Shown one piece after another: positions 9,738 through 28,766 of a stretch of 64,000 nucleotides of DNA. Below the pieces are notes generated by a model. That model searched no databases and was not told where the DNA came from. It saw only the letters and a list, made by a program, of their open reading frames with translations. This DNA is from Nitrospirota bacterium. Its GTDB lineage: Bacteria > Nitrospirota > Nitrospiria > Nitrospirales > Nitrospiraceae. The DNA lies in NCBI GenBank assembly GCA_004296885.1, contig SCVN01000008.1, forward strand, positions 124,001 through 188,000. Direction: 5' to 3'. Position 1 is the first letter of the stretch, and the number at the start of each line of letters is the position of its first letter. Position numbers and translations under genes: made by a program.

Positions 9738-9770
9738 GACACCGCCTAGGCAGTGTCGGGCTTCTTTTTT
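9733..9770 (+). terminator. Terminator abutting the araC-type ribosome binding site
   Basis: AGCCCGACAC (9733-9742) pairs with GTGTCGGGCT (9753-9762), followed by TCTTTTTT. The T-tract ends one base before GGAG, the ribosome binding site of the next gene, so the AraC-type gene needs read-through, or the hairpin also controls translation. Confidence 0.85.
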
Positions 9771-9779
9771 GGAGACACC

Positions 9780-10352
9780 ATGACGACTCGTGCACATGTC
9801 CAGGCACCATCCGATACGCGAATCCAGGTCATTGCGGCCATCCGCCGGCACTCTCCCCTTTGGGCCACACGGCTGGATCAAGCGGCCACCAAGCAACGCC
9901 CGATCGCAGACGAAGGGCGCGCGGCGGAACACGGCAACCTCTTCGAGGAGTTGAAACGACTCCTCACGCAACTCGAGGCGCAGCCGGCACCCGCTCAGGA
10001 CCTCACCCGCACCATCCGAGGGTTCATGGAAACGAATTTACATCGTGGGTTGACGCTGAAGGAACTCGCCAAATTCCTCGGGTACTCGGAAAAATATTGC
10101 TCCGACCTCTTTCAATCCTTGATGGACGAACCGTTTTCTCAATGCGTCAAACGGTTGCGGATCGAGCGCGCCGCGCAATTGCTGTTGGACACGAAGACCC
10201 CGCAAGCCGCGATCGCCGAGGCGCTCGGCTTCAGCGACCAATTTGCCTTCAGCCACTTCTTCAAACGGGAAGTGGGCTGCTCGCCCCGAACGTTCCGTAT
10301 CCGGTCCGGAAACCGGCCCTCCGCTCGCCACGGCGGCTCGGAACCCGAATGA
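9780..10352 (+). CDS. AraC-family transcriptional regulator
   Basis: A 190-residue protein with the AraC-type double helix-turn-helix at residues 75-175 (LTLKELAKFLGYSEKYCSDL for the first helix pair; IAEALGFSDQFAFSHFFKRE for the second). The N-terminal 70 residues are short and show no cupin domain, so the effector-binding part is atypical or absent. ATG 9780 follows GGAG closely. Its stop overlaps the HlyD-type gene start (ATGA), which ties it to the exporter and TonB genes; it probably regulates this locus. Confidence 0.85.
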   Translation: MTTRAHVQAPSDTRIQVIAAIRRHSPLWATRLDQAATKQRPIADEGRAAEHGNLFEELKRLLTQLEAQPAPAQDLTRTIRGFMETNLHRGLTLKELAKFLGYSEKYCSDLFQSLMDEPFSQCVKRLRIERAAQLLLDTKTPQAAIAEALGFSDQFAFSHFFKREVGCSPRTFRIRSGNRPSARHGGSEPE

Positions 10353-11608
10353 GCACCGCGCCGAAGAACCGTCCCCATGACAGCGACCTCTCGGTCCTCT
10401 CTATTCCCCGTCCGGAAGAACCGGTCCCTCCTCCCCGCCCGGCGGGCCGGCAACGATGGTGGCTATGGGCTTGCGGCGGCGGCGTTCTCGCGCTGGGCGG
10501 ATATGCCGCTCTGGTCGCGGTTCCGAACGCCACGCCCGTGGACGTCGTAACCGTAACAGGGCTCCGGTCCGCAGAGGCGCCCGGCACCGTGAGCGCAAGC
10601 GGGTACGTCGTGGCGCAACGCCAGGCCCAGGTGGCGTCCAAAGGAACCGGGCGGCTGGAGTATCTCGGCGTCCAGGTCGGGGACCATGTGCAAACCGGCC
10701 ACGTGATCGCCCGGATCGAACAGGCCGACGTGGCGGCCAACGTTCGCGAGACCCAGGCGAGACTGGACGTCGCCAAAGCCGCGCTCGCGAACGCCAGACC
10801 GGAACTCCAGGACGCCGCGTTGAATCACGGCCGCCTGCAGGGACTGCTGGCTAAGACCTTCGTCACGCAGGCGGAATTCGATGTGGCCGTGGCGCGCCTG
10901 CGCCGAGCCAGGGCGTCCGTTCGCTCTGCGGAGGCCGCCATCATGGCAGCAACCGCCGAACTCCAGGCCGCGGAGGTGCAGATGGAGAGCACGAATATCC
11001 GGGCGCCGTTCGACGGCACGATCGTCAAGAAGTATGCGGAGGTCGGCGAGGTTGTCGCCCCGCTGGCCGCGTCCTCCGTCTCGCGGGGGGCGGTCGTGCT
11101 CGTCGCAGACCTGACCTCCTTGATGGTGGAAGCGGAAGTGTCCGAGTCCATGATCGGCACGATCCGCCAGGGGCAAACCGCCGAGCTCACGCTCGACGCG
11201 ATTCCCGGCAAACGGTACGGCGGGGCCGTGAGCCAGATCGTTCCCACGGCGGATCGGTCCAAAGCCTCCATCCTGATCAAGATCCAATTCCTGGATTTGG
11301 ACGAGCGCGTACTGCCCGAGATGAGCGCCAAAGTCGTCGTGCAAACCGGCGGCCCCCAGGAACTGCGCCCGAATGCCCCTCTCGGCGTCGGCCTCCCCAA
11401 GGCGGCCCTGATCGTCCGGGAAGGCCGGCACCTGGTGCTGGCGGTGAAGGACGGGATCGTGGTCGAGCGGACAGTGCAGGTCGGACAGGACCTCGGCAGC
11501 CTGGTCGAAGTCCGGGGAACCCTCGAGCCGGGGGATAACGTGGTCATCAACCCGCCGCAGCACTTGAAGGCCGGCGACGCCGTGCGGGCCATACGAAAGG
11601 AATCCTGA
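10349..11608 (+). CDS. HlyD/MacA-type periplasmic adaptor of an ABC exporter
   Basis: A 419-residue membrane-fusion protein. One transmembrane helix (about residues 36-57) anchors it, followed by a biotinyl-lipoyl half-motif (LEYLGVQVGDHVQTGHVIAR), an alpha-helical hairpin and the second half-motif (STNIRAPFDGTIVKKYAEVG), then beta-barrel domains. Such adaptors link an inner-membrane ABC transporter to an outer-membrane channel. It overlaps the AraC-type gene by 4 nt and lies 4 nt before the ATPase gene. No TolC-type channel is encoded in this cluster. Confidence 0.9.
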   Translation: MSTAPKNRPHDSDLSVLSIPRPEEPVPPPRPAGRQRWWLWACGGGVLALGGYAALVAVPNATPVDVVTVTGLRSAEAPGTVSASGYVVAQRQAQVASKGTGRLEYLGVQVGDHVQTGHVIARIEQADVAANVRETQARLDVAKAALANARPELQDAALNHGRLQGLLAKTFVTQAEFDVAVARLRRARASVRSAEAAIMAATAELQAAEVQMESTNIRAPFDGTIVKKYAEVGEVVAPLAASSVSRGAVVLVADLTSLMVEAEVSESMIGTIRQGQTAELTLDAIPGKRYGGAVSQIVPTADRSKASILIKIQFLDLDERVLPEMSAKVVVQTGGPQELRPNAPLGVGLPKAALIVREGRHLVLAVKDGIVVERTVQVGQDLGSLVEVRGTLEPGDNVVINPPQHLKAGDAVRAIRKES

Positions 11609-11612
11609 ACCC

Positions 11613-12287
11613 ATGCCGTCCTCGATCGTGGAACTGCATCACGTGTGCAAATCCTACTACCGAGACCGCCGCGAAATTCCCATCCTCCGGAACCTCTCGC
11701 TGACCATCCCTGCGGGAACGTTTCTGGCCGTCATGGGTCCCTCCGGATCCGGGAAAACGACCCTTCTGAACCTGCTGGCCGGCATCGACAGGCCGACCTC
11801 CGGTGCGATCCGCGTGGCGGGCACCGGCGTGTCAACCCTCTCGGAATCGGCGCTGGCCCGGTGGCGCACGCGGCACATCGGCTTCATCTTCCAATTCTAC
11901 AATCTGATTCCGGTGCTCACGGCGGCGGAGAACGTGGAATTGCCGCTGCTGCTCACCCCGCTGTCCCGGCGGGAGCGGACGCAGCACGTCCATGCGGCGC
12001 TCGCCCTCGTCGGACTCGCGGATCGCATGCAGCACTACCCGCGTCAGTTGTCGGGCGGGCAGGAGCAGCGGGTCGGCATCGCGCGGGCGATCGTGAGCGA
12101 TCCCACGCTCCTCCTGGCCGACGAGCCGACGGGCAACCTCGACAAGGACTCGGCGAACGACATCCTGACCTTGCTCGCGCGACTGAACCGAGAAATGGCC
12201 AAGACCATCGTCATGGTCACGCACGACCCGCAAGCCGCGGAACGGGCGCATTCGGTCCAGCGGCTCGAAAAAGGCGTGCTGGCCTAG
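11613..12287 (+). CDS. ABC transporter ATPase (MacB/LolD type)
   Basis: A 224-residue ATPase with Walker [10 protein letters not shown] (42-50), Q-loop Q94, signature LSGGQ (146-150), Walker B LLLADE (166-171) and switch His204. It belongs to the MacB/LolD/FtsE group that works with FtsX-type permeases. Two such permease genes follow, so the likely complex is an ATPase pair with a permease heterodimer plus the HlyD-type adaptor. Substrate unknown. Confidence 0.93.
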
Positions 12288-12314: not shown

Positions 12315-13484
12315 ATGACCCTCTTTCATCTGGCATACAGGAATGCATGGCGGCAGAAAGCCCGCACTATCCTCACCGTGGCGGGCCTCGCCGTCGTCGT
12401 GCTGGGGCTGGGGCTGCTCCGAACGACCGTGACGGCCTGGTATGCAGGCGTAGAGGCCTCGGTGCAGAACCGGCTGATCACGCGGCATGCCGCGTCCCTG
12501 TCCATCCACCTCCCGCTGGCTTACCGGGACCGTATCGCCGCCCTCCCCGGCGTGACCGGCGTGTCCTATGCCAACTGGTTCGGCGGAGTCTATCGCGACG
12601 CCAAGGGATTCTTTCCGCAATTCGCCGTCGAGGCGCGGTCGTATCTGGACCTGTATCCTGAATTTCGGCTGACCGCGGCGGAACGGGACGCGTTTCTCGG
12701 CGATCGCCAAAGCTGCATCGTCGGCCGGAAACTCGCCGCTCAGCACGGGTGGAAGATCGGCGACCAGATCCCGCTCAAGGGCAGCCTGTATCCCGGAGAC
12801 TGGGAATTCGTCGTGCGCGGGATCTACCAGGGCGCCGAACGCGCCACCGACGAGACGCTCTTGCTGTTCCACTGGGACTATTTGAACGAACGGCGTCGGG
12901 CGACTGATCCCGACCGCGCCAACACCGCCGGATGGTTCGTCGTGCAAGTCACGGAGGCCTCGCGAGCCGCCACGCTCGCGAACGCCGTCGACGCCGGTTT
13001 CGCAAATTCGGCGGCCGAGACCAGGACGGAAACCGAGCAGGCTTTTCAAATGGGATTCGTCGCGATGGCCGGCACGCTGATCCTGACGTTGGACCTCATG
13101 GCCGTGCTCCTGAACGGCATTACGCTGCTCGTCCTGGCCAATGCACTGGCGATGTCCGTCCGGGAACGGACCCGGGAGTACGCCGTGATGAAGACGCTCG
13201 GGTTCCGTCCCATCCACCTCGCCGGGTTGATCGCCGGAGAATCGCTCCTGATCGCGGCCCTGGGCGCGGCCGTCGGCGCGACGCTCACGATTCCGGCGTG
13301 CAAGGCCTATGGCGCGCTGTTGACGAATCGCCTGGGGAATTTCTTCCCGGTGTTCGCGCTGCAACTGCGGACCCTGTGGCTCATCATCGGCGCCACCCTG
13401 CTGGTCGGGCTCATGGCCTCGGTCGCGCCGATCCTGCGGGTGACGCGCATCCGCATCACGGAAGGGTTGAGGCACATCGGCTGA
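12315..13484 (+). CDS. FtsX/MacB-type ABC permease, first subunit
   Basis: A 389-residue permease with an N-terminal transmembrane helix (TILTVAGLAVVVLGLGLL), a periplasmic MacB-like domain of about 220 residues, and three C-terminal helices starting near residue 255 (FVAMAGTLILTLDLMAVLLN). The cytoplasmic loop contains RERTREYAVMKTLGF, typical of FtsX-domain proteins. It is separated from the ATPase gene by 27 bp and from the second permease gene by 2 bp. Confidence 0.88.
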   Translation: MTLFHLAYRNAWRQKARTILTVAGLAVVVLGLGLLRTTVTAWYAGVEASVQNRLITRHAASLSIHLPLAYRDRIAALPGVTGVSYANWFGGVYRDAKGFFPQFAVEARSYLDLYPEFRLTAAERDAFLGDRQSCIVGRKLAAQHGWKIGDQIPLKGSLYPGDWEFVVRGIYQGAERATDETLLLFHWDYLNERRRATDPDRANTAGWFVVQVTEASRAATLANAVDAGFANSAAETRTETEQAFQMGFVAMAGTLILTLDLMAVLLNGITLLVLANALAMSVRERTREYAVMKTLGFRPIHLAGLIAGESLLIAALGAAVGATLTIPACKAYGALLTNRLGNFFPVFALQLRTLWLIIGATLLVGLMASVAPILRVTRIRITEGLRHIG

Positions 13485-13486
13485 CC

Positions 13487-14659
13487 ATGCGGCTGCTCTT
13501 CGCCTACAGCGTTCGGAACCTGCTGGCCAGGCGCCTGACGACCGGCCTCACCGTCGCCGGGCTGAGCCTCGTGGTCTTCGTCTTCGTGGCCGCGCTGATG
13601 CTGGCCCGCGGCCTCGAGACGACCCTCGTCGGCACGGGCCTCCCGGACAACGTCCTGATCCTCCGGAAAGGCGCGACGACGGAGATCGCCAGCGGCATCT
13701 ACCGGGACCAAGCCAACATTCTGCAAATCCAGCCGGAGGCCGCCCTGGGAACGGCCGGCCGGCCGCTGGCGTTCGGCGAACTGGTCGTGCTGATCACACT
13801 CACCAAGCGCGGCGAGGCCAGCACGGCGAACGTGATCCTGCGGGGTACCGCTCCGGAGGCCTTGCGTCTGCGCCCGCAAGTCCGCCTGACCCGGGGACGC
13901 GCCTGGCGGCCGGGCACGACCGAAGTGATCGCAGGCACGCAGGTCGCCGGACGATTCGAACGCGCCGGGTTGGGACAGCGCCTCCGCTTCGCCAAACGGG
14001 ACTGGACCATCGTCGGCCTGTTCGACGCGGCCGGAAGCGGGTTCGAATCGGAGATCTGGGGGGACGCCGACCAATTCATGGCGGCTTACGGCCGCGACTC
14101 GTTTTCCTCCTTCACGCTGCGGCTGTCCCATCCGGCCCTGTTCGACGCGTTGAAGACCCGCCTGGAAAACGATCCGCGTCTCTCCTTCCAGATCAAACGG
14201 GAACGGGACTACTACGCCGAAAAATCCGCGATGCTCTCCGCGTTCATCACCTTGCTGGCCTCGGTCCTGACGATCATCTTCGGCATCGGGGCGATTTTAG
14301 GCGCCGCCATGACCATGCACGGATCCGTGTCGAACCGCACGGCGGAAATCGGGACGCTGCGCGCGCTGGGATTCGCCCGCCGCCACATCCTGGCCGCGCT
14401 GATCGCAGAGTCGCTCCTGATCGGAGGCGCGGCGGGGCTCTGCGGCATAGCCGGCGCCTCGCTGTTGCAGACCGTGACCGTGTCCACGATGAATTGGAGC
14501 ACCTTCTCGGAATTGGCCTTCGGATTCGCTCTGTCGCCCGGCATCGTAGCCCGCGGGCTGCTGTTCGCGCTCATCATGGGATTCCTGGGAGGGCTGGCGC
14601 CGGCGACCCGCGCCGCCCGCCTCCCGATTGTCGCCGCGCTGGGGACCCGCAACGGCTGA
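13487..14659 (+). CDS. FtsX/MacB-type ABC permease, second subunit
   Basis: A 390-residue paralogue of the preceding permease with the same layout: N-terminal helix (TTGLTVAGLSLVVFVFVAAL), large periplasmic domain, and C-terminal FtsX domain with NRTAEIGTLRALGFARRHI. ATG 13487 is 2 bp after the previous stop. The pair suggests a heterodimeric exporter. No convincing terminator follows, but a new Fur-like operator precedes tonB. Confidence 0.88.
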   Translation: MRLLFAYSVRNLLARRLTTGLTVAGLSLVVFVFVAALMLARGLETTLVGTGLPDNVLILRKGATTEIASGIYRDQANILQIQPEAALGTAGRPLAFGELVVLITLTKRGEASTANVILRGTAPEALRLRPQVRLTRGRAWRPGTTEVIAGTQVAGRFERAGLGQRLRFAKRDWTIVGLFDAAGSGFESEIWGDADQFMAAYGRDSFSSFTLRLSHPALFDALKTRLENDPRLSFQIKRERDYYAEKSAMLSAFITLLASVLTIIFGIGAILGAAMTMHGSVSNRTAEIGTLRALGFARRHILAALIAESLLIGGAAGLCGIAGASLLQTVTVSTMNWSTFSELAFGFALSPGIVARGLLFALIMGFLGGLAPATRAARLPIVAALGTRNG

Positions 14660-14781: not shown

Positions 14782-14796
14782 CGAGAACGTTTCTCA
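14782..14796 (+). promoter_or_regulatory. Fur-box-like operator upstream of tonB
   Basis: CGAGAAC-G-TTTCTCA is a near-palindrome with the 7-1-7 Fur layout in an AT-rich stretch 29 bp before tonB. TTGACG (14778-14783) could be a -35, but no -10 at standard spacing is clear. Confidence 0.5.
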
Positions 14797-14824
14797 ATAT
14801 CATTTTAAACGGACTGCCGACACG

Positions 14825-15871
14825 ATGATTATTCAAGTTCTGCCGCGCACGGAGGAAGCGCCCCTCCTTGTTCACAGTTGGGTTTTCTCATTCGCGCTCC
14901 ACGGTCTGATGGTCGGAGCCGCGGTCGCCTTCTTGTCCGAGGTCCAGCCGCGTCCCCAACCGGAACCGTTCACCTGGAAGGTTGCCCTCACAAACGCGTC
15001 GATTCAGCCGCCGCTGGAACCCGAACAGCCTGCGCCGGACGAGGCAAAGTCGAGCCAAACCGCCACTCCTGTCCGGAACCAGCAACCCCCGACGCAACCG
15101 GCGACGCGATCGTCCGAGCAAGCCATCGCGACGATGCCACCGCAAGTGGTGCCGGCACATGCGCCCGAGCCGCCCAGCGCCACAGTGCAATCGAGCGAGC
15201 CACAGCGGCCCGCAGAGGCGGACGTGGCGCCACTGAACCAGGCGGTCCAGTACGTCGCCCGGCAGGAACCGGTTCAGGAACAACAGCCTGAGACTCGGGA
15301 GAGCCAGCAACCGATCCAACCGGCCCAGGTAGCCGGCCTCTCGACCACCCCGGTTGAGCAGACTCATCAAGCAGCGCCTGCCGAAGCCCAACCAACGATC
15401 TCGACGTCCCCCGGGCCGGCGTCCGCCGAGCCGGAGCCGCCTGTTCCGTCCGTGACCGCAGCCTTCCCGTCGAACCGTCCGACTGATCCGGCTCAGGCAA
15501 GCGTGCCGGGGACAAGTACGTCCGCCGCTCCCGCTCTCGTGAAGGCCAACGCGGCTGCCGCCTCCGCCCGAACGGGCAAGGCGGATCATCGGTGGCTGGC
15601 CGAGACCCTCTGGCACCGGATCCAACGGCTCAAACAGTATCCCAAGCTGGCTCGAAACCAGGGATGGGAAGGGCGGGTCGTCGTCCGGGTGTTGATCAAA
15701 GAAGACGGCAGTCTCATGGACGCAAACGTCGTCGAAAGCTCCGGCTTCGAGATCCTCGACCTCGACGCCGTCGACCTCATCCGGCAGGTGTGCCCGCTGA
15801 CGCTCAAACAGGCCCTGGGCCAAACTCACGTGGCCATCCACATTCCCATCCAGTACCGACTCGATCAATAA
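14825..15871 (+). CDS. tonB: TonB energy-transducing protein
   Basis: A 348-residue TonB. It has one membrane helix (about residues 18-38), a long Pro/Ala/Glu/Gln-rich linker of about 200 residues that spans the periplasm, and a C-terminal TonB domain (WLAETLWHRIQRLKQYPKLA; then GWEGRVVVRVLIKEDGSL; ending HIPIQYRLDQ). TonB carries proton-motive energy from ExbB/ExbD to outer-membrane receptors. The ATG at 14825 was chosen because the helix then sits at the N-terminus; no strong Shine-Dalgarno is visible. ExbB and ExbD are not in the window. Confidence 0.92.
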   Translation: MIIQVLPRTEEAPLLVHSWVFSFALHGLMVGAAVAFLSEVQPRPQPEPFTWKVALTNASIQPPLEPEQPAPDEAKSSQTATPVRNQQPPTQPATRSSEQAIATMPPQVVPAHAPEPPSATVQSSEPQRPAEADVAPLNQAVQYVARQEPVQEQQPETRESQQPIQPAQVAGLSTTPVEQTHQAAPAEAQPTISTSPGPASAEPEPPVPSVTAAFPSNRPTDPAQASVPGTSTSAAPALVKANAAAASARTGKADHRWLAETLWHRIQRLKQYPKLARNQGWEGRVVVRVLIKEDGSLMDANVVESSGFEILDLDAVDLIRQVCPLTLKQALGQTHVAIHIPIQYRLDQ

Positions 15872-15886
15872 GCAAAGGAGACCAAC

Positions 15887-17575
15887 ATGAACACCCCTAC
15901 CCTGCTTCGCATCGTGCTGATCGCCATGGCCTGGGCTCTCCCGACCGCCGCTCTGGCGGAGGGGGGCAAGCCGGGCTTCCTGATCGTGGCCCCGGATCGC
16001 GGATTCCTGGGCAATCAGGAAATCCAGGCCCTCGTCCAGGACTTCAAGAAAGACTACCTCGGAGCACTGGCCCTGATCGGCCGGGATTATGCTGGCCCGG
16101 AAAACGAATATGCCGCCTATGCGACCAAGGCCATTCAGGAGTTGAAGCAGGCCGGGGCCACGGAGATCGTAGCCGTGCCCCTCTTCCTCTCGGCCTCCGA
16201 TCCGCTGTTGAAGCGGGTGGCGCCGGCGCTGCCGGCCTACGCCGGCGGCCTGGCCGTCCGCTGGGCTCCGGCCATGGCGGACGATTACCTGATCGGGCAA
16301 GTCCTGCTGGACCGGGTCGCCGCAATCAGCCAGCAACCGGCCGCCGAGCGTCTGATTCTGATCGGCACGGGCGCCATGGACGACGAGAACCAGAAAGCGC
16401 TGAAGACGGACATCGAGAAGCTGCTGGCCTACGTACAGCGCTACAAACGCTTCCGGGAGGCCGAGGCCGTCGTCTACTTCGACCGCGAGGCCGAGGGAGC
16501 GGAGAAGAAAAACCAGGAGATCAAGGCCCGCGTCCTCGCCCAGATCGCCAAGCAGGGGCGGACGGTGATCGTCCCCGCCTTCATCGGCCCCAAGTTCGAC
16601 AACGCCATGGCGCTCAGTTCCTGGCTCGAGCAGCAGTTCAAACCCCTTCAAGTGGCCTATCAGCAGTCGGAGTTGCTGCCCCACGCCAACGTCCTGCTCT
16701 GGCTCAAGAAGACCGCGAACCGTTCGGTCGCCGCCGCGCCCGGCGAGATCGGCGTCGTCATCATGCCCCACGGCTCCACGCAACCGTGGAACGACGCGGT
16801 CGAGCGGACGATCGCGCCGTTGAAAGCCAAACATCGCATTGAGATGGCCTACGGGATGGGCGATCCCTGGATCATCCAGGACGCGGTGACGCGCCTCGAG
16901 CAGCAGGGCGTGAAGCGCATCGTGTTCGTCCGGATGTACGCGCTGGAATCCCACATGAAACCCCTAACCGACTACATTCTCGGCCTCTCGGACCGCCCGC
17001 CGAGCGACGGGCAGGGGCACGGATTCGACCACGAGGCGGTCCCGCCCCATCAGATCCGCAGCGCCGCCCTCTTCTCGACCTTCGGCGGCTACGAAGAGTA
17101 TGCCGGTATCAGCCAGGTCATGTGCGACCGCATGATGGAAGTGAGCAAAGACCCGGGCAAAGAGACCGTGATCCTGCTCGCCCACGGGGAAGGCACCGAC
17201 GAGGGCAACAGCAAGTGGCTGGCGATCATGAACGGCAACATCGAACGGATCAAAAAGGACCCGCGGTGCGCCAGGTTCAAGACCATCCGGGCGGCGGCGG
17301 TCCGCGAGGACTGGCCGGACAAGCGCAAAGCGGCGGTGGAGGAAGTCAGACACATGATCGAAGAGGACGGAAAGAACAGCCGGGTAATCGTGATCGCCAA
17401 TCGCCTGTACGGCTCGGGGCCGTACAGGAAAATGCTCAAAGGACTGCAGTATGACCTCAACGAGAAGGGATTGGTCCATCCCGTGATTACCCGCTGGCTC
17501 GAGGAAGGCATCGGCCAGGTCGGCACCGCGCTGGCAAGACCGAGCGACTCGTTTCAGCGGCTCGCCCAGCAGTAA
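15887..17575 (+). CDS. Secreted CbiX-like chelatase with three homologous domains
   Basis: A 562-residue protein with a signal peptide (cleavage likely after LPTAALA, residue 24), so it should act in the periplasm. Residues 285-400 resemble CbiX/SirB-type chelatases, which insert Co or Fe into sirohydrochlorin: PHGSTQPW (H295) and a second His in YALESHMKP (H356) match the metal-binding pair. The first domain (about 29-150) has APDRGF in place of HGS and no second His. The third (about 425-545) keeps LAHGEG but lacks the second His. It lies 15 bp after tonB and just before the receptor, suggesting metal or tetrapyrrole handling after import. Substrate not known. Confidence 0.75.
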   Translation: MNTPTLLRIVLIAMAWALPTAALAEGGKPGFLIVAPDRGFLGNQEIQALVQDFKKDYLGALALIGRDYAGPENEYAAYATKAIQELKQAGATEIVAVPLFLSASDPLLKRVAPALPAYAGGLAVRWAPAMADDYLIGQVLLDRVAAISQQPAAERLILIGTGAMDDENQKALKTDIEKLLAYVQRYKRFREAEAVVYFDREAEGAEKKNQEIKARVLAQIAKQGRTVIVPAFIGPKFDNAMALSSWLEQQFKPLQVAYQQSELLPHANVLLWLKKTANRSVAAAPGEIGVVIMPHGSTQPWNDAVERTIAPLKAKHRIEMAYGMGDPWIIQDAVTRLEQQGVKRIVFVRMYALESHMKPLTDYILGLSDRPPSDGQGHGFDHEAVPPHQIRSAALFSTFGGYEEYAGISQVMCDRMMEVSKDPGKETVILLAHGEGTDEGNSKWLAIMNGNIERIKKDPRCARFKTIRAAAVREDWPDKRKAAVEEVRHMIEEDGKNSRVIVIANRLYGSGPYRKMLKGLQYDLNEKGLVHPVITRWLEEGIGQVGTALARPSDSFQRLAQQ

Positions 17576-17708: not shown

Positions 17709-19820
17709 ATGGAACCGAGAAAACGAACGCCGTCCCGTGTTTTCCGCGCGTTGGCGCTGGCCTGGTGTCTGACGGCCGGCACGCAACCCGGCGCCCTGTG
17801 GGCCCAGACCAGGATGCCGCCGTCGATGCCGCCGTCGACGCCCACCATTTCGCAGCCTGATTCCTCCGGTCAACAGGACCCTGGCGCCTCCCAGGAAACC
17901 ACCGGCCCGCAGGGGGCTGGCGCGCCGGTGGAGAGCCCGGACTATCTGCTCCCGATCGAAGGCAACGAAACCGTCATCACCGGCACCTGGACGCCCCACG
18001 CCCAGCGGGACTCGCCGGTGGAAATCGAGCGCATCACCGGCAAGATGCTGGAGCAGGCCGGCGCGACGAACATCGGGCAATCCCTGCAGGACGTGCCAGC
18101 GGTCCAGCCCGGCCGCGGCGGAGGCGGCTTCCCCCAGTTCCAGATTCAGGGGCTCCCGTCCATCAATACGCTCTTCCTGCTCAACAGCCAGGAAGTGATC
18201 GGCACGATCGAGGGCGCCACGTTCACGCGCGACATTCTGGCCTCGCCGGAAATCGACTCCATCGAAATCGTGAAAGGCGCGGCGGCGGTGCAGTACGGGA
18301 GCGATGCGATCGCCGGCGTCATCAACATCCGCACGAAATACGCGACTAAAGAGGCGGGGGCCACCATGTTCGGCCAATACGGCCGATTCAACACGGCCAC
18401 CGTGTTCGGCGCGCCGCAATTCAAGGTCGGGAAATTCAGCGGATTCTTCTCGGCCGGCACGCAATCGACCACCGGTTTCGACCTGAACCAAGCCACCCCT
18501 CAGACGGACGGCCCAGCCCAGGCCAACACGAAAAGCCTGAGCGGGAACCTCGCCTACGAGTTTTCGCCCCGCTCGAAGCTCTCCTTTTACTCGCGCTACT
18601 CGGACGACGAACGCAAGACCCGACAGAATCCCTCTCCGGCCGGCACCAGCATCCGCGAAGTGAAAGCCGACGTCCAGCGCTCACAGAACATCCTCCGATG
18701 GGATTATCAACCGGACGCGGTCTCGAACCTGATCGTCTGGGGCCACTACCAAAATTTCCTGAGCGACTCGTCCACCTTCCGGCTCGGCGACAACACCAGG
18801 ACCCGCTACTCCAGCTTTACGCAGGAACTGTTCGAACCGCAATTCCAGTACAGCCGGCAGGTCGGCAAGGAGCACCTCCTCACGGGCGGCGGCGAATACG
18901 ATATCCGGCGGGGCCGGGGGGTGAATCTGAAGGGAGGCGCCACGCAGTTGAACGAGTCCGCCCTCTGGGCTCAGGACGAAATCACCCTGATGAAGGACGT
19001 GGAAATCATGATCGGCGGACGCTACACGTCCAATAGCAAGTACGGCGGGTTCTTCAGCCCGCAGACGACGATCCTGGTCAAGCCGGGCGACTTCCGCGGG
19101 CGCTTTACCTATACCAGGGGGTTCCGAAGCCCCGACCTGGTCGAAACCGGGGGCGCCTTCGTGGAAGGCGGAGGAGTCGGCATCGTCGGCCGGGAGAACC
19201 TGCAGGCGGAAAAGTCCGTTAGCTACACGACGAACTTCGAATACTATTGGGAAAAGGCCAAGATCGGCGCGAGCTTCTTCCGGCACCAGGTCAGCAATCA
19301 GATCCAGTTCCTGGCCGGGGGCTGCTCGGCCGCCGAAGCCGCCGCGCTCGGCGTCACACTGCCGCTGTGCTTCAAGGGCACGAACGTGAGCGCGGTCCAG
19401 AGCCAGGGATTCGAGCTCGAGGCCGGCGGCAAACCGGCCAATTGGCTGTACGTCGAAACCGGCTACATGTACCTGGACGCGTACGACCAGAACACGGGTT
19501 CGCAACTGTTCCAACGATCGCCGCACTCGTTCAAGTCCAGGGTCGTGGTGGAACATGACGGCTGGAGCCTGACGACCCGCCTTCGCTGGTACTCTTCATT
19601 CGGGTTCGGCGACCTCAATACCAACCAGAAGATCGACCCGAACGAGAAAGCGCCGTCCAACTTGCAGCTCGACATGCGGCTGGCCAAGACGCTCAAGAAC
19701 GGCATCGAAGTCTACGGCGGTGGAGAAAACATGACGTCCTCCCGGATGAATTTCAGTTCGGGACTGATTCCGCAGACGGGCGTCATGCTCTGGTTCGTGG
19801 GTATGCGGATGACCCTGTAG
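17709..19820 (+). CDS. TonB-dependent outer-membrane receptor
   Basis: A 703-residue receptor from ATG 17709 with AAGGAG about 9 nt upstream. It has a signal peptide (about 30 residues, ending LWAQT), a possible TonB box (ETVITGTWTP), a plug domain with IGQSLQDVPAVQPGRGGG and IEIVKGAAAVQYGSDAIAGV, and a 22-strand-type barrel ending with an aromatic-rich strand (VMLWFVGMRMTL). Overall it is closest in style to BtuB/FecA-like receptors. Ligand is not evident; Fur-like sites and the CbiX-like neighbour favour an iron, cobalt or tetrapyrrole compound. Confidence 0.93.
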   Translation: MEPRKRTPSRVFRALALAWCLTAGTQPGALWAQTRMPPSMPPSTPTISQPDSSGQQDPGASQETTGPQGAGAPVESPDYLLPIEGNETVITGTWTPHAQRDSPVEIERITGKMLEQAGATNIGQSLQDVPAVQPGRGGGGFPQFQIQGLPSINTLFLLNSQEVIGTIEGATFTRDILASPEIDSIEIVKGAAAVQYGSDAIAGVINIRTKYATKEAGATMFGQYGRFNTATVFGAPQFKVGKFSGFFSAGTQSTTGFDLNQATPQTDGPAQANTKSLSGNLAYEFSPRSKLSFYSRYSDDERKTRQNPSPAGTSIREVKADVQRSQNILRWDYQPDAVSNLIVWGHYQNFLSDSSTFRLGDNTRTRYSSFTQELFEPQFQYSRQVGKEHLLTGGGEYDIRRGRGVNLKGGATQLNESALWAQDEITLMKDVEIMIGGRYTSNSKYGGFFSPQTTILVKPGDFRGRFTYTRGFRSPDLVETGGAFVEGGGVGIVGRENLQAEKSVSYTTNFEYYWEKAKIGASFFRHQVSNQIQFLAGGCSAAEAAALGVTLPLCFKGTNVSAVQSQGFELEAGGKPANWLYVETGYMYLDAYDQNTGSQLFQRSPHSFKSRVVVEHDGWSLTTRLRWYSSFGFGDLNTNQKIDPNEKAPSNLQLDMRLAKTLKNGIEVYGGGENMTSSRMNFSSGLIPQTGVMLWFVGMRMTL
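18057..18097 (+). repeat. 41-bp direct repeat, copy 1 (in the receptor plug)
   Basis: Identical over 41 bp to 20119-20159. It encodes AGATNIGQSLQDV in both genes and marks the duplication that produced the truncated receptor copy. Confidence 0.9.
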
Positions 19821-19851
19821 GGTGGCCATTCAACTGGAGAGGAGGTGCGCG

Positions 19852-20181
19852 ATGGCGAAGCTTGAACCGGCGGTGTGGGCTCCCTATTGCATCATCGCCG
19901 GCACCTTGATCGTGTCGATCCTTGCGGGCAAGGGCTGCGCCGCCGCTCCGGACGGCCCCACGGAGGCACGGCAAGAGAACGGCCGTGCACAGGCCGAAGC
20001 CGGGCCGTCTGCGCCGGTGCTGGGGAAGGATACCGTCTTCACCGGCACCAGGACGCAGCACAAACAAAAGGACTCCCCCGTGAAAATCGACCGGATCACC
20101 GGCACGACCTTGGAACAAGCCGGCGCGACGAACATCGGGCAATCCCTGCAGGACGTGCCCGGTCTTCAGCCGGGAAGGTAG
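19852..20181 (+). CDS. Truncated receptor copy: secreted plug-start fragment
   Basis: A 109-residue ORF with a hydrophobic N-terminus (YCIIAGTLIVSILAGKGC). Its last 50 residues (KDTVFTGTRTQHKQKDSP through IGQSLQDVPGLQPGR) copy residues about 85-136 of the receptor just upstream, then stop exactly where the receptor continues with its glycine-rich turn. The N-terminal 60 residues differ from the receptor's. It starts 31 bp after the receptor stop with GAGAGGAGG upstream. It could be a decaying duplicate or a small periplasmic protein carrying a TonB box. Identity at the protein level is clear; function is not. Confidence 0.6.
   Translation: MAKLEPAVWAPYCIIAGTLIVSILAGKGCAAAPDGPTEARQENGRAQAEAGPSAPVLGKDTVFTGTRTQHKQKDSPVKIDRITGTTLEQAGATNIGQSLQDVPGLQPGR
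20119..20159 (+). repeat. 41-bp direct repeat, copy 2
   Basis: Exact match to 18057-18097, near the 3' end of the truncated receptor copy. Confidence 0.9.
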
Positions 20182-24347: not shown

Positions 24348-25694
24348 TCAGATATTCTGCATGAAGTGGGATACGCTCGCCTGATCCACGTCCGTGCCCA
24401 TAATGGCCGACAGCGGCACGTTGGTTGACTTCTTGCCGGTCAGGCCGGACTCCACTTCATCCACGATCAATTCCACTGGCATGGACTGCCCGCCGTAGAC
24501 GTGCGGCCCGGCGATAATTTTCGCCTTGGAATGGCCGTAGATCGCCGTCGCCACGTCCTTGGCCAACCAGCCGACGTAATTGAATTCGGGCACCACGATC
24601 AGCTTCACATCCTTGCAGAGATCGCGCAGTTCCTGCGTGGGGAACGGGCGCAGCGACCGGATCTTGATCAATCCGACCTTGATGCCCTTCTCGGCGCAGA
24701 GACGGACCGCTTCTCGGGATTGCGCGGCCGCGCTGCCGGAGGCGATGATCACCGCATCCGCCTTGTCCACGTTCTCCGCCGTGCACAGTCCGCCCATATA
24801 CTTGGTGATGTATTTCCTGGACCGCTCGACCGCCGCCCACACTTCCTGCTGCCAGACCGCGTGGATGTTGTAGGCCATGAAGTTCGACTTCTGCACCGGG
24901 GCGTCACGCGACAACCGGGCGGGAGGATTTTCCGCGTCTAGCACCGGCACCGCGCCGCGCCACGCTTCACGGGGCGGCAGCTTCATGCTCTTGTCCTGCA
25001 TGCGCACGTACCCGCGGGCGTGGGTGACGAAAAAGCCGTCGCAGCAGACGCCGACCGGCAGGGTCACATCGTTCATCTCGCTGATGATGAACCCCTTCAT
25101 GATGAAGTCGAACATGTCCTGCTGGTTTTCGGCGTGGAAGACGATCATCCCGCAGTTCAGTAGATATGCAATCTCGATGTTGTCCGGCTGGATGGCCAGC
25201 GGCGCATTGACCACCCGGCAGGTGAACATCGCCACCGCCGGCAGCCGATGGCCGGGCCAGGAGGCGATCCCTTCGAGGCCGCGCAGCGTCCCCGGCCCCG
25301 CCGTGGCGGTGAAGCAGCGCACGCCGGCCCGGGACCCGCCTGCGATCGCCGCCATGACGCCGACTTCTTCCTCGCCCCGGTAATATTCCTTGACGTAGCC
25401 TTCGCCGTACAGCACGCCGACCAGTTGCATGGTTTCGCTCTGCGGCGTGATCGGATAGGCGATCGCCATATCCACGTTCGACCGGCGAATGGCTTCCTTG
25501 GCCGCTTCGCTCCCCGTGATAAACTCCTTGGTCCGCGGCGCATCGAAGAACATGTATTCGGGCGTGACCACGCGCTGTTTCTTGGCCTCCGCGTGCGGGT
25601 CCTTCTTGACCTCGGTCTTCGGAGCCGCCGCGACGCTGGTGATCGGATCGCCCTGCGGATTGGTTTTGACTTCGGTGTCCAGGGATTCGCTCAT
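24348..25694 (-). CDS. porA: 2-oxoacid:ferredoxin oxidoreductase, alpha subunit
   Basis: A 448-residue alpha subunit with the pyrimidine-binding N-terminal domain after a 50-residue charged extension (MSESLDTEVK...). Signatures include AYPITPQSETMQ and GGSRAGVRCFTATAGPGTL. The complex interconverts a 2-oxoacid with an acyl-CoA and CO2 using ferredoxin, fixing CO2 in the reductive TCA cycle. It is the last gene of a five-gene operon, 37 bp after the epsilon subunit, and GAGAGGTG precedes the ATG. Pyruvate and 2-oxoglutarate enzymes cannot be told apart safely here, so the symbol is tentative. Confidence 0.88.
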   Translation of the reverse strand: MSESLDTEVKTNPQGDPITSVAAAPKTEVKKDPHAEAKKQRVVTPEYMFFDAPRTKEFITGSEAAKEAIRRSNVDMAIAYPITPQSETMQLVGVLYGEGYVKEYYRGEEEVGVMAAIAGGSRAGVRCFTATAGPGTLRGLEGIASWPGHRLPAVAMFTCRVVNAPLAIQPDNIEIAYLLNCGMIVFHAENQQDMFDFIMKGFIISEMNDVTLPVGVCCDGFFVTHARGYVRMQDKSMKLPPREAWRGAVPVLDAENPPARLSRDAPVQKSNFMAYNIHAVWQQEVWAAVERSRKYITKYMGGLCTAENVDKADAVIIASGSAAAQSREAVRLCAEKGIKVGLIKIRSLRPFPTQELRDLCKDVKLIVVPEFNYVGWLAKDVATAIYGHSKAKIIAGPHVYGGQSMPVELIVDEVESGLTGKKSTNVPLSAIMGTDVDQASVSHFMQNI

Positions 25695-25731
25695 CGTTGC
25701 ACCTCTCTGTATATCGGTCAGGTCTGCGACC

Positions 25732-26496
25732 TTACCCTTCGCGCTTCATCTGTTCCGGGTTGTGACCAAAGGCTGTGGCGCCTGCCGTGCCGCCCGGCGT
25801 GGGCATGAAGGCCAGCGGATTCGTGTGGGTCTTACCCCCATGCACCTTCGACTGGGTGCCGGTGAAGCGGACGTTCTCGCCGTTCGCCGGCAGCTTGAGG
25901 CCCATCTCCTCGCGCACCCGCTTGAAAATCTGGGCGACCTTCTTGAGCTTGGCCGTGTCCGAATCGCGGATCGTGAGCATGGCGTCCTCGTGCCCCTGCT
26001 CCGCGCAGACCGCGCCCGTGCAGCAGTTCGTGCCGGCCCGGATCATTTTCAAGGTCAGGTTGGCATAGTGACAATGGACGCCGATGAAGATGCAGGCTTC
26101 GATCTTGTTGCCCCAGATCGTCAGATTCGGATGGTTCGGATTGATCACTTCCTCATGGTCGATCTTCGGATACTTGGGCCGGTAGTCCGGCATGGGGATG
26201 ATCAACACGTCCGGGATCTGCGCCGCAATCTCCAGCACCGCCTTGGCCTTCTCCACCGCGTGATCGTTCCAGGCCCAGAGCACCATCGGGCCGGGAAAAA
26301 GCGTGGCGTTCGGGCTCGTCAGCATCTTCCGCGCCATCTCCTCGATCACCAGGTCCTCATTGGGCTCCAGCAGCCCGTACATGAGCCCCTGGCCGGGATC
26401 GGGCAACATCACGCCCAACTGCGCGGCCGAGGGAGGATGGAACCCGGCCGGGCCGGGGACAATAATGCGTTCTGGCTTCTGTTCCGTCGTCTTCAC
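25732..26496 (-). CDS. porE: 2-oxoacid:ferredoxin oxidoreductase, epsilon subunit
   Basis: A 254-residue protein from a GTG at 26496 with GGGAG 9 nt upstream. It has no large family I can name beyond the fifth subunits (PorE/ForE) of the Hydrogenobacter-type five-subunit enzymes. Visible features are a Cys/His stretch (IFIGVHCHYANLTLKMIRAG; NCCTGAVCAEQGHEDAM) that may bind metal. Its place between delta and alpha subunits supports the assignment. Confidence 0.75.
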   Translation of the reverse strand: MKTTEQKPERIIVPGPAGFHPPSAAQLGVMLPDPGQGLMYGLLEPNEDLVIEEMARKMLTSPNATLFPGPMVLWAWNDHAVEKAKAVLEIAAQIPDVLIIPMPDYRPKYPKIDHEEVINPNHPNLTIWGNKIEACIFIGVHCHYANLTLKMIRAGTNCCTGAVCAEQGHEDAMLTIRDSDTAKLKKVAQIFKRVREEMGLKLPANGENVRFTGTQSKVHGGKTHTNPLAFMPTPGGTAGATAFGHNPEQMKREG

Positions 26497-26514
26497 GCGT
26501 TCTGTCTCCCTTAA

Positions 26515-26838
26515 CTAGCCGACGACCGGACTGGCCAGCACGGCGGTGGTGCTCTTCTCGCCGTACACCACGTTGTCGGTAATAGCCGCATTCGGCAGCT
26601 GGTCGATCATGATCATCTTGATCGCGTTATGTTTGGCCATGTTGTCGCACACCCATACGCACTGAGCGCAGCCCTTGCACCGATCCACCGCCACGTAGGC
26701 CGCGCCGTACTTGTAGCCTTTGTCCTTCCCGGCCTGGTCGTTGTAGAGGATCGTGTTTGCCTCGGGACAGAACTGGGTGCAGAGCTTACAGCTCGTCTGG
26801 GCACAAATGTCAACGTTGATATCGGCCACAAGATACAT
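26515..26838 (-). CDS. porD: 2-oxoacid:ferredoxin oxidoreductase, delta (ferredoxin-like) subunit
   Basis: A 107-residue subunit with two 4Fe-4S motifs, CAQTSCKLCTQFCPE (C12-C24) and CKGCAQCVWVC (about C54-C64). It carries electrons between the thiamine-diphosphate centre and external ferredoxin. AGAGGA precedes the ATG. It is 24 bp after the gamma subunit gene. The long first spacing (C-x4-C-x2-C-x3-C) is unusual. Confidence 0.88.
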   Translation of the reverse strand: MYLVADINVDICAQTSCKLCTQFCPEANTILYNDQAGKDKGYKYGAAYVAVDRCKGCAQCVWVCDNMAKHNAIKMIMIDQLPNAAITDNVVYGEKSTTAVLASPVVG

Positions 26839-26862
26839 GGAGATTCCTCTTTTTTATGGCGG

Positions 26863-27582
26863 TCAGACTCTCGCCGCGGCGGCCGCTTCCGCCTTCTTGG
26901 CGGCCTTGCTGATTTCGTCCCAACCGTGCGCAGCCGCAAAATCCCAGCCGGCCTTGATCACCGCCACGTTCTTATCGATCAGTTCCTGCTTCTTCTTGAA
27001 CTTCCGCTCGACCACGCTGTCCAGGGCCGCGGTGCCGCCCGACACGACAAACCCCTTGCCGAGGAACCGGTCCTTCACCGCCTGCTCCAACGCGGCGATG
27101 GTGGTCAGGCCGGTGATGCAGCCGATCGCACCCATCAGCGCCATATTGGTCGCCAAGTCCATCCCGGCCACCTCCAGCGAGATCTTCGTCGCGGGCAGAT
27201 AGTAGAGTTTCGCGCGGCGCTCCTCCAACTCGCGGGCCTGATCCTTGTGCAGCTTCATCGGCCCGTCGTTGTTGATCAACGCGACCCCGTCCTCTTTCAG
27301 CCCGAAGTAGAAGGGCATCGTGTAGGACTTGCCGTGCGTGATGACCTGCGGGTGGAAAATGATGATGATGTGCGGGAACGTGATCTCCCCGATCTCGTAG
27401 ATCGGCTCATCGGACACCCGCACGTAGCTCTCCACCGGCGCCATCCGCTTTTCAGAGCCGTAGAACGGGACGATCGTGCTTTCCCCGCCCGCGTTGATGA
27501 CCGCCGTGCTCAGGATGTGCGAGCCGGTGACGACCCCCTGGCCCCCGACGCCGGCCATCCGAATGTTGAAGCGTTTCGCCAT
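26863..27582 (-). CDS. porG: 2-oxoacid:ferredoxin oxidoreductase, gamma subunit
   Basis: A 239-residue gamma subunit that binds CoA, beginning MAKRFNIRMAGVGGQGVVTG, the typical glycine-rich start. GGAGGGCG precedes the ATG. Just upstream, in the gap after the beta subunit, lies a twin-hairpin leader element also found upstream of rplY. Confidence 0.9.
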   Translation of the reverse strand: MAKRFNIRMAGVGGQGVVTGSHILSTAVINAGGESTIVPFYGSEKRMAPVESYVRVSDEPIYEIGEITFPHIIIIFHPQVITHGKSYTMPFYFGLKEDGVALINNDGPMKLHKDQARELEERRAKLYYLPATKISLEVAGMDLATNMALMGAIGCITGLTTIAALEQAVKDRFLGKGFVVSGGTAALDSVVERKFKKKQELIDKNVAVIKAGWDFAAAHGWDEISKAAKKAEAAAAARV

Positions 27583-27584
27583 CG

Positions 27585-27638
27585 CGCCCTCCGTACCAAC
27601 CTTCGGTTGAGCCGCCGCGTTCGATCACATCGCGGCGG
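27585..27638 (-). promoter_or_regulatory. Twin-hairpin leader element, copy 1 (before porG)
   Basis: Hairpin 1 pairs CCGCCGCG (27612-27619) with CGCGGCGG (27631-27638); hairpin 2 pairs CAACC (27597-27601) with GGTTG (27605-27609). The ribosome binding site follows. The element is repeated at 53224-53267. Confidence 0.75.
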
Positions 27639-27694
27639 ATAGTGACTTTGCCTCCAGTAGGCTCAAATTCTTCCAGCTTGCGAGAACCGCCGGC

Positions 27695-28585
27695 TTAGGC
27701 CTTGGTCACCGCCGGAGCCGGCTTCGGCAGAAACTCCTTGTAGCCGTAGCGATCTGCGAGGAATTGCTTGGCTTCGTCGGTCACGTACTCGGTGAACTGG
27801 TAGCGGTCGCCTTCGACGTTCTTGGCGTCTTCCATGACTTTGTCCGTGGGAATGGCGTATTCGATGTTGCAGGAGGTGTAGGCTTGAATGTAGCTGGAGC
27901 CGACTTCGCGCGCGATCAGCACCGCCTTCTTGATCACCGCTTCGACCCGCCGCGGATTGTTCGGCACGACGGTGGCGACATAGGCACAGCCCGCCAGCTT
28001 GGCCAGGCTCACCATGTCCATCTTCTCGAACTTTTTGCCGAGCGGGGCCATCTTGAGCACGGCGCCCTTGTTGGTCATGCCGCTCTCCTGGCCACCGGTG
28101 TTCCCATACACTTCGTTGTCCAGCATGATCGTCGTGAACCGCTCGTGACGAAACCAGGAATGCACCACCTGCTGGAAGCCGATATCGGCCGTGCCGCCGT
28201 CGCCGGCCATCACGACCACATCCTTGGGCTTGTCGCCGAAGCGCAACCGCAGCCCGCGAGACAGTCCGCTCGCCACGCCGTTCTGGTCTCCGTAGTTGCC
28301 GTAGACGAAGGGAATGGCGGCCTGCGAGATCGCCAGGCGGCCGCATCCGGCCGTGCCGACCGTGATCGTATCTTCCGGATTCGGGAAGGAGATCATAGCC
28401 AGACGGATGAAGAGCGTCATGGCGCAGCCGGCGCACATGGGATGCTCCTCCAGAATTTCCTTGAAGCTCCCCATCTGCGATACGGTCGTCTTCTTGCCGA
28501 AGGGACCGTGCTCAACCATGTCCTTGTATTCCTTGGGCATGAACTTGTCGAAGCCCGGCGAGAACTTCACATAATCGAGACTCAT
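27695..28585 (-). CDS. porB: 2-oxoacid:ferredoxin oxidoreductase, beta (TPP-binding) subunit
   Basis: A 296-residue beta subunit. The thiamine diphosphate motif is GDGGTADIGFQ (128-138) with N157. Cysteines at CAGC (51-54) and C81 match the proximal 4Fe-4S cluster ligands. ATG 28585 follows GGGAGGTG with 6-nt spacing; a longer frame 17 residues upstream is not supported. It is the first gene of the operon B-G-D-E-A, with a promoter at 28767-28796 and a leader of about 175 nt. Confidence 0.92.
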   Translation of the reverse strand: MSLDYVKFSPGFDKFMPKEYKDMVEHGPFGKKTTVSQMGSFKEILEEHPMCAGCAMTLFIRLAMISFPNPEDTITVGTAGCGRLAISQAAIPFVYGNYGDQNGVASGLSRGLRLRFGDKPKDVVVMAGDGGTADIGFQQVVHSWFRHERFTTIMLDNEVYGNTGGQESGMTNKGAVLKMAPLGKKFEKMDMVSLAKLAGCAYVATVVPNNPRRVEAVIKKAVLIAREVGSSYIQAYTSCNIEYAIPTDKVMEDAKNVEGDRYQFTEYVTDEAKQFLADRYGYKEFLPKPAPAVTKA

Positions 28586-28766
28586 GTGGACACCTCCCAA
28601 TCTATAGCGACCACCGGACTTCATCCGGCCGGCCAACAGTCTTGTTTGATCGACTCTATTGTGAACTGATCGTTTATTGAACGACGCCCACGATGCGTAA
28701 GATACCGTGAGCCGGCTGATAGAAACGGCCTAAAACCTCGTCTTCCCACAGACTTGGACGCGATCG

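Follow-up and report, generated by a model that had tools for sequence, protein, structure and literature searches.

A four-lobe, predicted-secreted class II chelatase-like protein encoded at a TonB and receptor locus of Nitrospirota

Several class II chelatases have been described outside the cytoplasm. CbiK-P of Desulfovibrio vulgaris (2xvx/2xvz) is a periplasmic cobaltochelatase that has a His metal ligand of its own (PMC4063343), FetB of Porphyromonas gingivalis is reported to make Mn-protoporphyrin (PMC13402209), and for IhtB the removal of iron from haem has been proposed (PMC6460266). Removal of iron from imported haem with the ring left intact was long an open problem and is now credited to HmuS of gut Bacteroidota, a class I enzyme that takes the metal from haem after a TonB-dependent receptor has brought it in (PMC12583661). 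On the export side, MacAB exports protoporphyrin (PMC4263509), and during pyoverdine uptake the iron is freed in the periplasm and the ligand recycled, with PvdRT-OpmQ and MacAB exporting siderophores (PMC8891985).

The window analysed here, a 64,000-nucleotide stretch of a Nitrospirota genome, encodes a 562-aa protein that resembles each of these systems in part. Its closest fold is that of Bacillus SirB/CbiX-L (Z 20.7 for the whole model), which is also the best PDB profile match of its family (E 0.0025), but SirB is a two-lobe, cytoplasmic, biosynthetic enzyme with a full His pair, whereas the window protein is fused, carries a signal-like N-terminus and has an incomplete pair. The first-pass annotation had regarded CbiX/SirB enzymes as normally cytoplasmic, which holds for SirB and overlooks the extracytoplasmic class II chelatases CbiK-P (PMC4063343) and FetB/IhtB (PMC13402209, PMC6460266). 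Like CbiK-P (Z 16.8 for the whole model, 16.0 for its C-half), the window protein is a class II chelatase-type protein of predicted periplasmic location; like FetB/IhtB (Z 16.4 and 15.4 for FetB), it joins a class II (CbiK-type) fold, predicted to lie outside the cytoplasm, to a haem/iron-uptake setting. However, CbiK-P and FetB/IhtB are single two-lobe units, the latter on the outer membrane, whereas the window protein comprises two homologous units with four lobes in all, is about 12 % identical to FetB/IhtB, comes from another phylum and is encoded with TonB and a MacB-type exporter. HmuS receives haem via a TonB-dependent receptor and the HmuY haemophore (PMC12583661), and HmuY genes flank three relatives of the four-lobe protein; HmuS is nonetheless of class I (CobN-type), and the window genome is without a CobN-family match. 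The genes upstream recall the tripartite MacAB/PvdRT exporters in encoding an HlyD adaptor with a MacB-family ATPase and permeases, but in the window separate genes encode the ATPase and each of the two permeases.

In the literature searched, neither a class II chelatase with four lobes in tandem nor its Nitrospira operon is described, and a search combining Nitrospira, TonB and CbiX returned one general review, in which the four-lobe protein is not described. The four-lobe form and its operon appear to be undescribed; extracytoplasmic class II chelatases and haem de-chelation by HmuS are already known. Nitrite oxidisers have high haem and iron needs. If the function proposed below is correct, a secreted double class II chelatase would represent a second, independent solution to haem de-chelation and would account for some of the iron that these organisms obtain.

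Fold, lobe pairing and conserved residues

The gene follows the ribosome-binding sequence AAGGAG and starts 15 bp past the tonB stop codon. Its product has a Pfam CbiX match (27.6 bits against a cut-off of 22) at residues 80-104, covering part of lobe 1 only, and the four-lobe relatives L017 and L057 also exceed this cut-off. A Pfam Ferrochelatase match at residues 302-356 (19.4 bits) falls under the cut-off, NCBIfam gives weak CfbA (nickelochelatase) matches at residues 289-377, and no Pfam match to CobN-type sequence appears at E up to 1. A phmmer search of the PDB with the single 562-aa sequence returned nothing useful, and CbiK-P was absent from PDB sequence searches made with the four-lobe family. 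AlphaFold2 (AF2) modelling of the full protein from a 28-sequence alignment (mean pLDDT 89.8, pTM 0.88) yields four consecutive alpha/beta lobes. In the structural comparison (VIA), the neighbours of the whole model include, besides SirB, CbiK-P and FetB, the coproporphyrin and protoporphyrin ferrochelatases CpfC/HemH (Z about 18), and matches of the N-half to ferrochelatases span residues 28-282. Foldseek ranks SirB first for the whole model, and for the C-half it also returns periplasmic binding proteins. Fold and sequence profiles both place the protein in the class II chelatase superfamily (CbiX/CbiK/SirB/HemH). The chelatase-like similarity read from the sequence in the first-pass annotation is thereby borne out, and the structure prediction suggested there as a check returned this fold and not a different one.

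Comparison of the N-half profile (residues 28-282) with the C-half profile (residues 286-552) by hhalign aligned 218 columns (probability 99 %, E 2.4e-18), identifying the halves as homologous. Modelled separately, the C-half (pLDDT 90.1) folds alone as a complete two-lobe chelatase unit, and it matches Bacillus SirB from end to end (Z 17.7, residues 1-266 of the C-half model). The four lobes, the homology of the halves and the full-length match of the C-half to SirB together make the protein, on these models and alignments, a tandem in which two class II chelatase units of the CbiX/SirB/ferrochelatase type are fused. A cross-half pairing of lobe 1 with lobe 4 was also weighed, since some whole-model VIA ranges reached residue 558; the models lead us to prefer the tandem pairing (1+2, 3+4), as the C-half modelled on its own already gives a full chelatase fold. 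Three domains had originally been counted, a reading ruled out by the four lobes of the AF2 model together with the half-against-half alignment. The signal peptide proposed at the same time is consistent with the alignment: in each of its 28 sequences the N-terminus is hydrophobic and contains A-x-A-type cleavage motifs, as judged by a simple hydropathy and motif check, and nothing pointed to a cytoplasmic protein.

Residue conservation was assessed over these 28 sequences, the most distant of which share 33 % identity with the window protein. Among the positions that never vary are D37, R38 and H266 in the N-half, and H295, D326, E403, H433, E474, D475, W476 and R506 in the C-half. H295, in lobe 3, corresponds in alignments to the first of the catalytic histidines of CbiX/CfbA, and its counterpart in lobe 4 is the 'HG' histidine H433; the N-half has neither 'HG' histidine, their places being occupied by D37-R38 and G162. 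Of the metal-binding pair H295/H356 put forward in the first-pass annotation, H295 is retained in 28/28 sequences, but position 356 is His in only 16/28 (with His at 355 or 356 in 22/28) and is not His in the three relatives adjoining HmuY, so the pair as such is not conserved. Its placement in the middle one of three domains likewise did not survive, H295 belonging to lobe 3 of four, and the invariant H433 and H266 had been overlooked. As judged from the alignment, the C-half, which also contains a variable His-bearing loop at about residues 374-387, retains one 'HG' histidine per lobe, and the classical pair within one lobe that marks active CbiX/SirB sirohydrochlorin chelatases is not conserved. 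Catalytic activity of the four-lobe protein is plausible.

The locus and its neighbourhood in relatives

Pfam matches confirm that the chelatase-like gene lies between a TonB gene and the gene of a TonB-dependent receptor, as had been noted from the sequence (Table 1). The upstream genes encode, by Pfam, the HlyD adaptor, MacB-superfamily ATPase and FtsX permeases of a MacAB-type exporter; it is not a fused MacB, with the NCBIfam MacB model under its cut-off, and no outer-membrane factor turned up beside these genes. In a PDB search, the solved structures nearest to the window receptor belong to the colicin I receptor (CirA) and to ferric enterobactin receptors (FepA/PirA), and its best NCBIfam model, TonB-hemin, falls under the cut-off. 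Behind the receptor gene, a remnant of a second receptor copy occupies the place where relatives carry genes for a two-lobe chelatase and PepSY, both missing in the window. Further along, on the minus strand (24348-28636), the translations of clustered ORFs resemble 2-oxoacid:ferredoxin oxidoreductase subunits, as a Nitrospira-type carbon-fixation pathway would lead one to expect.

Table 1. Features of the island in the window, with positions and supporting evidence
Feature	Positions	Strand	Evidence
AraC-type regulator, first gene of island	9753..10352	+	Pfam HTH_18 2.3e-21
HlyD/MacA-like periplasmic adaptor	10349..11608	+	Pfam HlyD_D23 9.7e-20; start ATG 10349; conserved order
LolD/MacB-type ABC ATPase	11613..12287	+	Pfam ABC_tran 1.1e-35; NCBIfam best LolD, MacB, both under cut-offs
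FtsX/MacB-type permease 1	12315..13484	+	Pfam FtsX 6.6e-14, MacB_PCD 4.4e-7
FtsX/MacB-type permease 2	13487..14659	+	Pfam FtsX 4e-14, MacB_PCD 1.3e-13; start inferred from frame
Fur-box-like inverted repeat GAGAACGTTTCTC, 23 bp upstream of tonB start	14783..14801	+	Fur consensus 14/19
TonB protein	14825..15871	+	Pfam TonB_C 2.6e-16
Four-lobe (tandem) class II chelatase-like predicted-secreted protein	15887..17575	+	Pfam, AF2, structural comparison, hhalign, alignment
Signal-peptide-like N-terminus, about residues 1-24 (...PTAALA/EG, slash at predicted cleavage)	15887..15958	+	Hydropathy and A-x-A motifs
N-half, lobes 1+2, residues about 28-284	15968..16738	+	AF2 model, VIA, alignments
C-half, lobes 3+4, residues 286-552	16742..17542	+	Separate AF2 model, SirB match, conservation
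Codon of H295	16769..16771	+	Invariant, alignment
Codon of H433	17183..17185	+	Invariant, alignment and hhalign
TonB-dependent outer-membrane receptor	17709..19820	+	Pfam barrel 8.9e-34, Plug 2.4e-18
Truncated second copy of receptor N-terminus (plug start), remnant	19822..20181	+	Matches window receptor (L063 12814-13179); weak Plug match with stop

A neighbourhood survey of 30 loci found the setting to be conserved. The commonest order is AraC, HlyD, ABC ATPase, FtsX, FtsX, TonB, four-lobe protein, receptor, two-lobe CbiX and PepSY, with ferritin genes further along on the opposite strand. A TonB-dependent receptor is present at 27/30 loci, PepSY at 17/30, AraC at 14/30, the exporter permeases at 13/30, ferritin at 10/30, Fur at 4/30 and FecI/FecR at 2/30; TonB lies directly upstream of the chelatase gene at 14 loci, and ExbB/ExbD occur at some. 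The association with a receptor is not attributable to chance, because it recurs at this frequency although the window genome (3.26 Mb) has only six TonB-dependent receptors and one fragment. In L012, L013 and L017 an HmuY-family haemophore gene directly follows the receptor gene (Pfam E 1e-18 to 2e-19); across the phylum HmuY occurs in 5/296 genomes, among which only G173, the genome of L017, also has the four-lobe protein, and this phylum-wide search did not find it in the window genome. The locus of TonB, four-lobe protein and receptor is a conserved iron-uptake island. The tie to TonB-dependent metal uptake that the first-pass annotation had suspected thus holds across the class, where the same gene order recurs with ferritin, PepSY, Fur, FecI/FecR and HmuY.

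The second chelatase of these islands, found at 12/30 loci (L052:16525-17466 and 11 equivalents), is a two-lobe CbiX protein (Pfam CbiX 1.1e-15), about 310 aa long, whose N-terminus is signal-like. It has the full catalytic His pair as invariant H45 and H115 together with a MEYTEP motif, its profile matches a CfbA/CbiX-S-type chelatase (5e-11), and it is related to the N-half of the four-lobe protein (E 2e-14). It occurs in 9/296 genomes, and all nine also have the four-lobe protein (Fisher p 2e-12, not corrected for phylogeny). The two-lobe protein is possibly the actual catalyst in relatives; activity in the window organism cannot depend on this partner, because it is absent from the window genome.

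The Fur-box-like repeat upstream of tonB is the best Fur-consensus match between 8 and 22 kb of the window (14 kb scanned), yet is weak, scoring 9/12 on the stricter 7-1-7 pattern. At the same position upstream of tonB, L004, L018, L019 and L050 score 15/19, and the stricter scan finds good Fur boxes near chelatase, receptor or tonB starts in L004, L013, L015, L018, L050, L055 and L057 and none in the window; a general test over tonB upstream regions gave a mixed outcome. We treat the site as supporting evidence only, its position being conserved and several relatives having good sites, with that of the window weak.

Proposed function and alternatives

We tentatively favour, as having slightly less than an even chance of being right, the reading that the predicted-periplasmic four-lobe protein helps to remove metal from a TonB-imported complex, probably a tetrapyrrole, and that the ligand is re-exported. 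This reading fits best because a receptor and TonB for import, a chelatase fold and an adjoining MacAB-type exporter are all encoded together. The receptor, powered by the co-encoded TonB, would import complexed iron, haem or some other metallo-tetrapyrrole being the likeliest form, and the N-half, which lacks 'HG' histidines, may hold or dock the ligand. The C-half, where lobe 3 contains the invariant H295/D326 and lobe 4 H433/E474-D475, would take part in metal extraction, that is, in reverse chelation, presumably assisted in relatives by the neighbouring two-lobe CbiX with its full His pair and by the PepSY membrane protein as a possible reductant. The HlyD-ABC-FtsX-FtsX exporter would then expel the stripped ligand, and the iron would pass to ferritin.

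In favour of metal removal we count the class II fold and its tandem duplication, the signal-like N-terminus, the iron context, HmuY at three loci, the restriction of the two-lobe CbiX to genomes with the four-lobe protein, and the precedents of MacAB (PMC4263509), HmuS (PMC12583661) and IhtB (PMC6460266). The rest of the window genome adds to these: no match to haem oxygenase (PF01126) and no member of the CobN/HmuS family were found there, and a separate CbiX-family protein and HemH are encoded elsewhere, which makes a biosynthetic role unlikely. Against metal removal stand the unconserved His at position 356, absent in the three HmuY-adjoining relatives, the lack of HmuY in the window genome and a receptor nearest to catecholate-siderophore receptors. 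Additionally, searches of the window genome for FeoB, ZIP and NRAMP gave no match and thus no identified route for released Fe2+, and the resemblance of the fold to periplasmic binding proteins would allow pure binding. It is doubtful, if conceivable, that a class II chelatase has been reversed into a dedicated periplasmic haem/porphyrin de-chelatase that replaces HmuS, with the emptied porphyrin pumped out by the MacAB-like exporter; the four-lobe protein would then act alone or with the two-lobe CbiX, and HmuY would form part of the uptake system in some members.

A non-catalytic periplasmic carrier, in which the chelatase fold is reused to bind and shuttle haem or another tetrapyrrole with the metal kept, strikes us as somewhat unlikely. 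It would suit the Foldseek matches of the C-half to periplasmic binding proteins, the N-half without 'HG' histidines and the homologues in which the full CbiX catalytic pair is missing, and the two-His CbiX partner adjoining at 12/30 loci could be the enzyme. However, the invariance of H295, D326, H433, E474 and D475 over 28 diverse sequences exceeds the needs of a scaffold, and no haem ABC importer adjoins the locus, the sole FecCD matches in the window genome lying elsewhere.

The kinship of the receptor with CirA/FepA/PirA, and the PepSY_TM proteins and MacB-family exporter co-encoded in relatives, recall the pyoverdine precedent of periplasmic iron release and ligand recycling (PMC8891985). 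On such a siderophore reading, the receptor would import a ferric siderophore, PepSY would reduce its iron, the chelatase-like protein would take and pass on Fe2+, and a MacAB/PvdRT-like exporter would recycle the emptied siderophore. We judge this quite unlikely, given that HmuY adjoins three family members, that the listed solved class II relatives are tetrapyrrole enzymes or haem proteins, and that the window genome has no PepSY gene at this place. Insertion or exchange of Co, Fe or Mn in an imported or secreted tetrapyrrole would follow the ordinary activity of class II chelatases, which insert metals, as reported for FetB (PMC13402209) and as in the periplasmic cobaltochelatase CbiK-P (PMC4063343), yet the ferritins and Fur-like sites point to iron gain and the His pair is incomplete, making it improbable. 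That the Pfam CbiX match denotes an ordinary sirohydrochlorin chelatase, working in the cytoplasm in cobalamin or siroheme synthesis and beside TonB by chance, is scarcely credible in view of the signal-like N-terminus in all homologues, the separate CbiX-family and HemH genes, the conserved TonB/receptor synteny and the incomplete catalytic pair.

Distribution across the phylum

The window genome is Nitrospira-like: the 18 relatives in the genome collection all come from MAGs of Nitrospirota, for the most part Nitrospira sp. Among 296 genomes sampled evenly across the phylum, a clear copy of the four-lobe protein (E below 1e-90) is present in 19, and three more (G060, G153 and G224) have fragments only. 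One genome of Nitrospiria, G137 (L057, L058), has three diverged copies, two of them close together and one with an in-frame stop. Given these diverged copies and the fragments elsewhere, the gene seems to have been gained and lost repeatedly. A search of plasmids found four-lobe relatives only in Candidatus Manganitrophus, where the 199-kb plasmid CP114559.1 (L067) carries the gene, annotated as 'hypothetical protein' (CP114559), in the order chelatase, sigma factor, receptor, PepSY and ferritin, beside a PRTRC system.
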